A stretch of DNA of 27,458 nt, taken from the IMG/VR virus record IMGVR_UViG_3300007631_000006, positions 1-27,458 of that record; one strand, given 5' to 3'. Position 1 is the stretch's first letter. Each line of letters begins with the position of its first letter. This stretch comes from a virus. Under the pieces are notes generated by a model that saw only the letters and a program-made list of their open reading frames with translations, had not been told where the DNA came from and made no database searches. Shown piece after piece: positions 25,385 through 27,078 of the stretch. Position numbers and translations under genes: made by a program.

Positions 25385-25392
25385 TATTTATA
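25385..25392 (-). promoter_or_regulatory. T4-type late promoter TATAAATA for hsp20
   Basis: An exact TATAAATA on the minus strand, overlapping the regA stop and lying 63 bases from the hsp20 ATG at 25322. Late expression of the chaperone would coincide with virion assembly. Confidence 0.72.
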
Positions 25393-25870
25393 CTTTCTTA
25401 GACGTTGCGCCGATGTTGTATTTGGCGCAAAGTTCCCAGTTGTTCTTATCACGATACGAGATGATCTTGATCTGCCTCAAGGGCGCAGTATTCGATAACT
25501 GATCGGGATTCACCGATTCAACAAGACCCCAGTCCGATAGAAGAGTTACGATTGTATTGCGACGGCTGAGGTCGTTTTCCATCAAATTCGATGGTTTACC
25601 GTCCAGAAGAAACAACTCCTTAAAGTGTACGATAAAGTACCGGCCCTGCTTATGAAGAATGTGGCAGGACTGAAAGAGTTTGTTCTCGCGTCGAGATGCG
25701 ACACCAATGCGTGTCAGAGTTTCACGTACTTTAAGGAAGTCGTCCGGCTCTCTGAGAGAGACCTCGAGCATCATTGCTGGAGTCCACTCTACAGGCCTAT
25801 CCTCGTTCTGTGGTCGAGGCTTCTCAACGGCCGGAGCGTCTTGCTGATGATTTGTTGTTTGTATAGCCAC
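25388..25870 (-). CDS. regA: RegA translational repressor, with possible N-terminal extension
   Basis: RegA binds early mRNAs near their start codons and blocks translation. The core from about residue 34 matches T4 RegA: LEVSLREPDDFLKVRETLTR, LFQSCHILHKQGRYFIVHFK, RNTIVTLLSDWGLVE, IKIISYRDKNNWELCAKYNIG. The open frame starts at GTG 25870, with AAAGGG 9 bases upstream, giving 160 residues with a proline/glutamine-rich extension of about 33 residues. ATGATG at 25774/25771 would give the usual 127 to 128 residues but has a weak ribosome site. Its first 47 bases overlap the gene 62 relic in another frame. Confidence 0.9.
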   Translation of the reverse strand: MAIQTTNHQQDAPAVEKPRPQNEDRPVEWTPAMMLEVSLREPDDFLKVRETLTRIGVASRRENKLFQSCHILHKQGRYFIVHFKELFLLDGKPSNLMENDLSRRNTIVTLLSDWGLVESVNPDQLSNTAPLRQIKIISYRDKNNWELCAKYNIGATSKKV

Positions 25871-26000
25871 CTTTATAGACCCTTTGTTTCAATTCAGTAA
25901 TTTGATCATTATTCAACAGAGTCAGGACTTGGCGTGCTTTTTCATTACTGTAACCCATTAATTGTTGCTCACAATCGCTCATAAGTTCTAACTCATTCAT
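25824..26000 (-). pseudogene. 62: Relic of gene 62 3' end (58 codons)
   Basis: An open frame from ATG 26000 to TGA 25824. Its core, GYSNEKARQVLTLLNNDQIT then ELKQRVYKGGYT, aligns with the end of the intact gp62 downstream of the homing gene: HYSDEKADAVLSILTDEQLK then VLKQKVFKGGRT (about half identical over 34 residues). An in-frame TAA lies 3 codons before the ATG. It abuts and overlaps regA, where gene 62 ends in other T4-like phages, so this is probably the ancestral gene 62 end cut off by the insertion. It may still be translated, since AGGA touches the ATG. Confidence 0.75.
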
Positions 26001-26007
26001 TCCTAAT

Positions 26008-26015
26008 TATTTATA
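26008..26015 (-). promoter_or_regulatory. Late promoter TATAAATA toward regA
   Basis: An exact TATAAATA on the minus strand, 8 bases before the ATG of the gene 62 relic and upstream of regA. It is almost back to back with a plus-strand copy at 26029. Confidence 0.5.
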
Positions 26016-26028
26016 AAATCATAAATGT

Positions 26029-26036
26029 TATAAATA
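26029..26036 (+). promoter_or_regulatory. Late promoter TATAAATA for the homing endonuclease
   Basis: An exact TATAAATA on the plus strand, 58 bases before the endonuclease ATG at 26094. Freestanding endonucleases in T4 are often under late promoters. It pairs with the opposite-strand copy 13 bases away. Confidence 0.6.
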
Positions 26037-26093
26037 GATATGGATCGCGAGGTTGCAGCCTCCATCCATTCTAACACTATAGGGAGTGCCAGC

Positions 26094-26687
26094 ATGTCTA
26101 TTTATCATATCATTTATAAGACTACCAATATTATTAACGGTAAGTGGTATATTGGTGTCCATTCCACAGATGACTTAAACGACGGATACCTTGGGTCTGG
26201 AGTCAGATTATTACAATCAGTGAGTAAATATGGTGAAGAAAACTTCACCAGAGAAATACTATACTTTTTTGATACAAGAGAAGCTGCATTTAATAAAGAA
26301 AAAGAAATCATAACAGAAGATATAGTTAATGATCGTCAATCATATAATATGTGTATTGGTGGCAATGGCGGTGTAGGCAAGTTAATACCTACGGATGAAA
26401 CTCGACATAAAATGTCAGAAACTAGGAAAAAATTACCACCGCCCGGTTTAGACAAAAAATATAAACCAGCATCAGAAGAAAGAAAACAGAAGATGCGTGA
26501 ATACATGCTAGCAAATCCAACAAAAGGCATGTTAGGCAAAACTCAATCTGAAGAGACACGCAAAAGGATGAGCAAAGCTGCTAAAACCAGACCACATGCT
26601 ACATGCCCAAAATGTGGTTGGTCAGGTCAGAAACAGTCAGTGTCAAGATACCATGGATTAGATGGTTCTAGGTGCGACCGCCTTTGA
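26094..26687 (+). CDS. GIY-YIG homing endonuclease (Seg-like)
   Basis: The only plus-strand gene. The start is set at 26094 (MSIYHIIYKTTNIINGKWYI) with AGGGAG about 7 bases upstream; the frame extends to 26040 without a better start. The 197-residue product has the GIY-YIG core (IIY at 6-8, KWYIG at 17-21, R38, E70), three NUMOD3-like DNA-binding repeats (DETRHKMSETRKK, SEERKQKMREYM, SEETRKRMSKAAK), and a C-terminal zinc-finger-like CPKCGWSG...H...C. It makes a site-specific cut to promote its own copying. Its 3' end overlaps the convergent gene 62 by 20 bases, so the two ends must move together. Confidence 0.92.
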   Translation: MSIYHIIYKTTNIINGKWYIGVHSTDDLNDGYLGSGVRLLQSVSKYGEENFTREILYFFDTREAAFNKEKEIITEDIVNDRQSYNMCIGGNGGVGKLIPTDETRHKMSETRKKLPPPGLDKKYKPASEERKQKMREYMLANPTKGMLGKTQSEETRKRMSKAAKTRPHATCPKCGWSGQKQSVSRYHGLDGSRCDRL

Positions 26688-27078
26688 ATACTTTTTGCTT
26701 TAACACCTTTAGTTGTTCATCGGTTAAAATGCTAAGTACTGCATCTGCCTTCTCATCACTATAATGATATACCTTTTTGATTGCATTAATGGATTCATTA
26801 TCATCTGGCTTCATCCATTTGCTGAATCTTTTGCGCTTACGTATAGCGTGTAATAAGTAATCATTTTGAAGCCGTGAATCAAGGTGATGATTTTTGTTCA
26901 TCTCGTTTGCGTGTAGGACCGAATCATTAAAGTACGAGAGTGATCGATTTGTGATATATGGATTATAGACTCGCTCAAGCAGTTCCGAATGATCACCGTT
27001 CTGGTCAAGCATAATGTTACGCTTACCAGTGTTGATCTCGTTTACGAACGAAAACGGTGTAAGTTTATCTTTACTCAT
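26668..27078 (-). CDS. 62: Clamp-loader small subunit, T4 gp62-like
   Basis: gp62 works with gp44 to load the gp45 sliding clamp. The 136-residue sequence has LTPFSFVNEINTGKRNI, YITNRSLSYFNDSVLHANEM, HHLDSRLQNDYLLHAIRKRK and RFSKWMKPDD, then the helical end HYSDEKADAVLSILTDEQLK with VFKGGRT. It is shorter than T4 gp62 (187) but normal for marine relatives as I recall them. The C-terminal 43 residues look imported with the homing gene, because a second version of them lies next to regA. Its ATG overlaps the preceding small ORF's stop (TAATG). Confidence 0.88.
   Translation of the reverse strand: MSKDKLTPFSFVNEINTGKRNIMLDQNGDHSELLERVYNPYITNRSLSYFNDSVLHANEMNKNHHLDSRLQNDYLLHAIRKRKRFSKWMKPDDNESINAIKKVYHYSDEKADAVLSILTDEQLKVLKQKVFKGGRT

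Follow-up and report, generated by a model that had tools for sequence, protein, structure and literature searches.

A homing-endonuclease element that appears to bring a replacement 3' end into gene 62 of T4-like phages and to displace the original end

Analysis of the gene 62-regA region of a viral genome fragment points to a homing-endonuclease element that carries its own replacement for the 3' end of gene 62: having inserted immediately 5' of a TATAAATA motif within that gene, it would patch the gene product (gp62, the small subunit of the clamp loader) and displace the old end. We assign this reading a probability of roughly 0.86. The window, that is, the whole stretch of DNA analysed, is IMG/VR record IMGVR_UViG_3300007631_000006, positions 1 to 27,458 (27,458 nt). 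Along the direction of gene 62 the order of parts is gene 62, a convergent GIY-YIG endonuclease gene, the displaced old 3' end, and regA. Gene 62 (26668-27078, minus strand) encodes 136 amino acids ending in KVFKGGRT. Approximately codons 1-74 (26855..27078, minus strand) are the native 5' part, which shows 73-84% DNA identity to L002-L007, IMG/VR contigs in which gene 62 directly adjoins regA with no insert; the remainder (26668..26854, minus strand) is a carried, foreign 3' end that continues in frame, lacks TATAAATA and shows 51-60% identity to the same contigs. At the motif site this tail reads TTATTACACGCTATA, where TTATAAATA would stand. The endonuclease gene (26094..26687, plus strand) belongs to a longest ORF of 26040-26687, within which the ATG at 26094 is the probable start, and overlaps the gene 62 stop by 20 bases: its position between the two ends and its convergent orientation are as the first-pass annotation of this DNA had described them. 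Upstream of it lies a TATAAATA late-promoter motif (26029..26036, plus strand), divergent from a second copy (26008..26015, minus strand) that forms the first bases of the old end and that normally lies inside gene 62, facing regA. The displaced end itself (25824..26015, minus strand) is eroded just past this motif and keeps the regA start region; indeed, the start codon of regA (25388..25870, minus strand; Pfam Translat_reg, E 4e-43) is within it.

The two gene 62 ends match each other (E 3e-7 in a targeted search; E 3e-14 for the second copy in an HMM search), and a search of the whole 27-kb record places the gene 62 end in these two positions only. Their similarity is not due to chance, and the earlier observation that a 58-codon ORF beside regA (25824-26000, minus strand, overlapping the regA start at 25870) repeats the end of gp62 is thus borne out. 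The breakpoint had been put at codon 93; it lies instead at the embedded promoter motif. Judged by homology, the duplicated segment starts at about gp62 codon 74-75, at the TATAAATA of 26015-26008 (minus strand), and is longer than had been supposed. In the window the codons directly after this motif are missing from the old copy, whereas L085, a 95%-identical carrier, retains more of it (TELDDLDAVKTYYGYSNEK...): the window copy has therefore been eroded since the insertion. A separate observation concerns phrog_30971 (82 positions, clamp loader), whose model is limited to the C-terminal portion of gp62; mis-annotation or duplication of gene 62 ends in other phages may lie behind it.

Comparison of the junction with relatives that have no endonuclease identifies the origin of each end. 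In L002-L006 the sequence of the 58-codon ORF is the contiguous end of gp62, including an extension past KGGY (e.g. KGGYTNNKPRNSGH in L004) that is gone from the gp62 of the window. Over aligned columns DNA identity to L002-L006 is 78-85% for the old end of the window, 57-60% for the new end and 77-85% for the gene 62 5' part and regA: the figures favor the proposal, already made in the first-pass annotation, that a foreign end replaced that of gene 62 and displaced the old one. In phylogenetic trees old ends sit with native relatives; that of the window groups with L002-L006 (93/99) and the new end falls elsewhere. An AU test on 177 columns did not reject a grouping of the new tail with the empty relatives (p 0.18).

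The empty relatives found for the window group reach 73-84% identity only. Since the nearest of them is just ~84% identical, the junction in the window, and with it the boundary of the 5' part, was placed by homology with the exact junction of a filled and an empty genome, L021 and L217. Gene 62 of these two is identical through ...CATTTTCTT; in L021 there follow a new tail and an HNH endonuclease gene (881 bp), after which identity resumes at TATAAATATCG and runs through the old end into the start of regA. L126, a relative of L021, matches L217 at 99.8% over 2808 bp on one side of the insert and at 98.9% over 2838 bp on the other, and the two are 99-100% identical over 5.6 kb outside the 881 bp. 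Presence and absence at a single site are thus found in near-identical genomes, here for an HNH carrier, and the point of insertion is fixed just 5' of the TATAAATA motif within gene 62. Two further pairs (L127/L028 and L155/L328) show the same pattern at 91-98% identity. In L021, L127 and L155 the old end is 98-100% identical to that of the empty sister and the new end 70-75%, which marks the former as native and the latter as foreign. Since the junction is not spanned by any repeat, a precise loss from L217 would seem unlikely. Inserts measure 743-882 bp and consist of the tail plus one large ORF, the endonuclease.

The insertion point coincides with a conserved signal. In almost all uninterrupted gene 62s TATAAATA stands exactly at this position, inside the coding sequence: it is present in 98 of 115 distinct genes (those not fetched by the motif pattern), and ATAAATA in 107 of the 115. 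Displaced ends have the motif at their start and carried tails lack it throughout (ATAAATA in 0 of 7 distinct tails; Fisher p 1e-7, for lineages that are not fully independent). The isoleucine codon at the site is ATA in 107 of 107 cases, compared with 353 of 900 elsewhere in gp62, and the DNA sequence itself is therefore constrained here. Isolates with the motif at this position include S-PM2, P-RSM4, C48C1 and Pelagibacter phage Mosig; T4 and Caulobacter phage Cr30 have no TATAAATA there, and T4-like phages therefore do not all carry the embedded motif. In S-PM2 NATAAATA is the late promoter, and it also occurs as a motif in other cyanomyoviruses (PMC2984593). The embedded TATAAATA is probably the late promoter of regA, and on the simplest reading one stretch of DNA would both encode gp62 residues and drive late regA expression, two jobs that the element has split between two copies. 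The old end had been regarded as a relic: it is indeed displaced, but it is not a mere leftover, since the late-promoter motif and the start of regA are still located in it.

The arrangement is not confined to the single case first noticed. When 405 loci (gp62 and regA both present in 292; 199 distinct gp62 5' parts) were scanned with an HMM, a duplicated end was detected in six lineages, and every enlarged gp62-regA spacing seen had one; because loci were gathered by similarity and motif searches, and so non-randomly, the fraction of carriers is not an estimate of frequency. The window, L001, L084 and L085 carry the GIY-YIG gene. HNH genes occupy the site in L021, L126 and L127, in L132 and its relatives, in L155 and in L255, and in all five endonuclease-bearing groups the enzyme is encoded on the strand opposite to gene 62, convergent with it. 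The sixth lineage, L045, has the duplicated end and no endonuclease: tandem gene 62 ends (L045:1559-1945) meet at the same junction, with an insert of 204 bp, and it may equally be a remnant after loss of the endonuclease or an intermediate of duplication. The carried tails of L021 (816-1007) and L127 (2720-2911, both in gene 62 orientation) share 70% DNA identity, and the respective endonucleases are closer (85% protein identity); tail and enzyme may not always travel as one unit, or tails may evolve fast.

The window enzyme matches the homing-endonuclease family phrog_314 (E 5e-44). Matches to Pfam GIY-YIG (E 0.015) and SegE_GIY-YIG (E 6e-4) are both below curated cut-offs; the IY...YIG motifs are visible in the sequence, which, together with its homology to phage homing endonucleases, marks it as a Seg-like GIY-YIG enzyme by sequence. 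Between the window and L085 its dN is 0.022 and dS 0.206 (dN/dS ~0.1), and it is thus under purifying selection. A C-terminal region of DNA-binding type (NUMOD3 or zinc-finger-like) is present: NUMOD3 is found at its cut-off, and CPKC-x-RYHG-x-C is common to the window enzyme and the HNH enzymes. Indeed, identity with the HNH enzymes that L021 and L155 carry at the same site amounts to 41-43% over the C-terminal ~90 residues, even though the catalytic domains are unrelated. The match of the GIY-YIG enzyme to the HNH enzymes of the site scores 62 bits over this region, as against 44 bits for the best match among 50,697 phage records. Most HNH enzymes of the site share the region, that of L255 having a different C-terminus, and the natural reading of these alignments would be a common targeting region with an exchanged nuclease domain. 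The leaders of the window GIY-YIG gene (26029-26094) and the L255 HNH gene (2420-2495) have a hairpin in common with compensatory changes (ATGGAT/ATCCAT vs GTAGAT/ATCTAC). It was set aside as evidence: its energy is unexceptional relative to shuffled sequences (z -0.75 for the window and -0.93 for L255). In L255, regA is immediately followed by a second ORF of GIY-YIG-like type (1295-1903).

If the end of gene 62 had been duplicated first within one genome, by misrepair or unequal recombination, and an endonuclease had landed in the spacer later, then tandem ends such as those of L045 could be explained, as could copies that are nearly identical in part (L155) or 88% identical over 33 codons (L255). 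We consider this order of events improbable. It does not predict that in L021, L127 and L155 the regA-side copy alone should match the empty sister, nor that the junction should be shared to the base by the exact pairs and should coincide with one motif across all lineages, and L045 fits a remnant left by loss of the endonuclease equally well. An assembly chimera or a mixture of strains is more unlikely still: filled and empty alleles do occur together in single samples (L127 and L028 in 3300045135; L085 and L005 in 3300026094), but the same junction was assembled from separate metagenomes for the window, L001, L084 and L085 and is seen in five other lineages, with reading frames intact and the endonuclease constrained as described above. 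Least credible is that the 58-codon ORF, open and with a possible start, represents a small gene in its own right, conserved in the interval from gene 62 to regA, given its identity with the contiguous gp62 end of insert-free relatives, the lack of any locus with the separate ORF and no second end among the 292 with gp62 and regA, and no sign of purifying selection on the old end between the window and L085 (dN 0.117, dS 0.076, 33 codons; tails with indels, such as the L127 new tail, were misaligned and were left out of dN/dS calculations).

Insertion of an endonuclease element with its own gene end remains the preferred reading. The sequences establish the point of insertion, the order of the parts, the native origin of the old end, the foreign origin of the new one and the recurrence of the arrangement, and from them the following course can be proposed. 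The element would enter gene 62 at about codon 74, immediately 5' of the embedded TATAAATA. It would bring a replacement 3' end, an oppositely directed endonuclease gene and, for the latter, a late-promoter motif that most lineages have and that diverges from the regA-facing copy. Gp62 would be completed in frame by the replacement end, so that the essential clamp-loader subunit survives; the original end would be retained because the late-promoter motif and translation start of regA lie within it. In a mixed infection the enzyme is expected to cut gene 62 alleles that lack the insert, at this doubly constrained site or close to it; repair from the carrier would copy tail and endonuclease together, and the replacement tail, having no TATAAATA, would resist cutting. 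Whether these elements form a self-patching homing family is a matter on which we are evenly divided: such a family would parasitise the doubly used gene 62 / regA late promoter site, conserving the targeting region and the point of insertion, exchanging the nuclease domain (GIY-YIG or HNH) and the carried end, and splitting overlapping functions into two copies.

The closest match among known systems is provided by fungal mitochondrial endonuclease ORFs with a carried gene end: mobile ORFs (mORFs) carry C-termini of atp6 in Allomyces and of atp6, atp9, cox2 and nad3 in Glomus (PMC3630166). There, as here, the reading frame of the host gene is completed by a foreign 3' end to which an endonuclease ORF is linked, and the native end, displaced downstream, is closer to the relatives than the inserted one is (PMC3630166). 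The phage elements differ in that they belong to T4-like phages, are inserted at a promoter motif embedded in the gene, encode their endonuclease, which has a late-promoter motif to itself, antisense to the host gene, and leave a displaced end with an apparent job as the regA leader. In the Glomus hybrids the endonuclease ORF is on the strand of the host gene; because it is on the opposite strand in all endonuclease lineages here, we regard these elements as a phage variant that works like the fungal type, not as a member of it. A review of the Seg and Mob enzymes of T4-related phages (PMC2988022) describes GIY-YIG or HNH nucleases that have a distinct C-terminal region for DNA binding and lie beside an essential gene, presence or absence between near-identical genomes, and late promoters, as here; in the same review those genes are free-standing between others and, segD excepted, nearly all co-oriented with their neighbors, and duplicated gene ends are not mentioned. 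Prophage e14 and related prophages at icd likewise supply a replacement 3' end and displace the original (PMC6379469, PMC10111431), but do so with an integrase and att sites: the 743-882 bp insert holds neither an integrase gene nor an att core, its largest ORF being the endonuclease. Within the open-access literature, passages on duplication and related matters in reviews of T4-related homing endonucleases (PMC2988022, PMC2993671) describe no phage endonuclease with a duplicated gene end, and those in a study of phage endonuclease boundaries (PMC10448857) nothing of this kind. What is new here is a phage endonuclease element that patches the very gene it interrupts. An endonuclease gene without intron or intein can thus inhabit essential coding sequence by bringing the missing end, a route by which foreign ends replace those of phage core genes and which would mislead gp62 phylogenies. 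The insertion further reveals, and separates from the coding function, a signal within gene 62 that is conserved as DNA and is probably the late promoter of regA.

A tblastn search with the gp62 end gave matches at 915 places in 914 phage records (one record, outside the matches listed, with two), and no isolate carrier was among the matches listed. No other clear duplication of a 3' end came to light when the flanks of 94 endonuclease loci were scanned for duplication. A possible mirror-image case, affecting a 5' end, was seen in the psbA-psbD region of L258 (1698-4247): a full-length photosystem II gene (psbD-like) is accompanied by a 48-codon ORF that matches its first 49 residues at ~90% identity, and another ORF and an HNH endonuclease lie between the two. 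It looks as though the gene had received a new 5' end while its former one stayed nearby.
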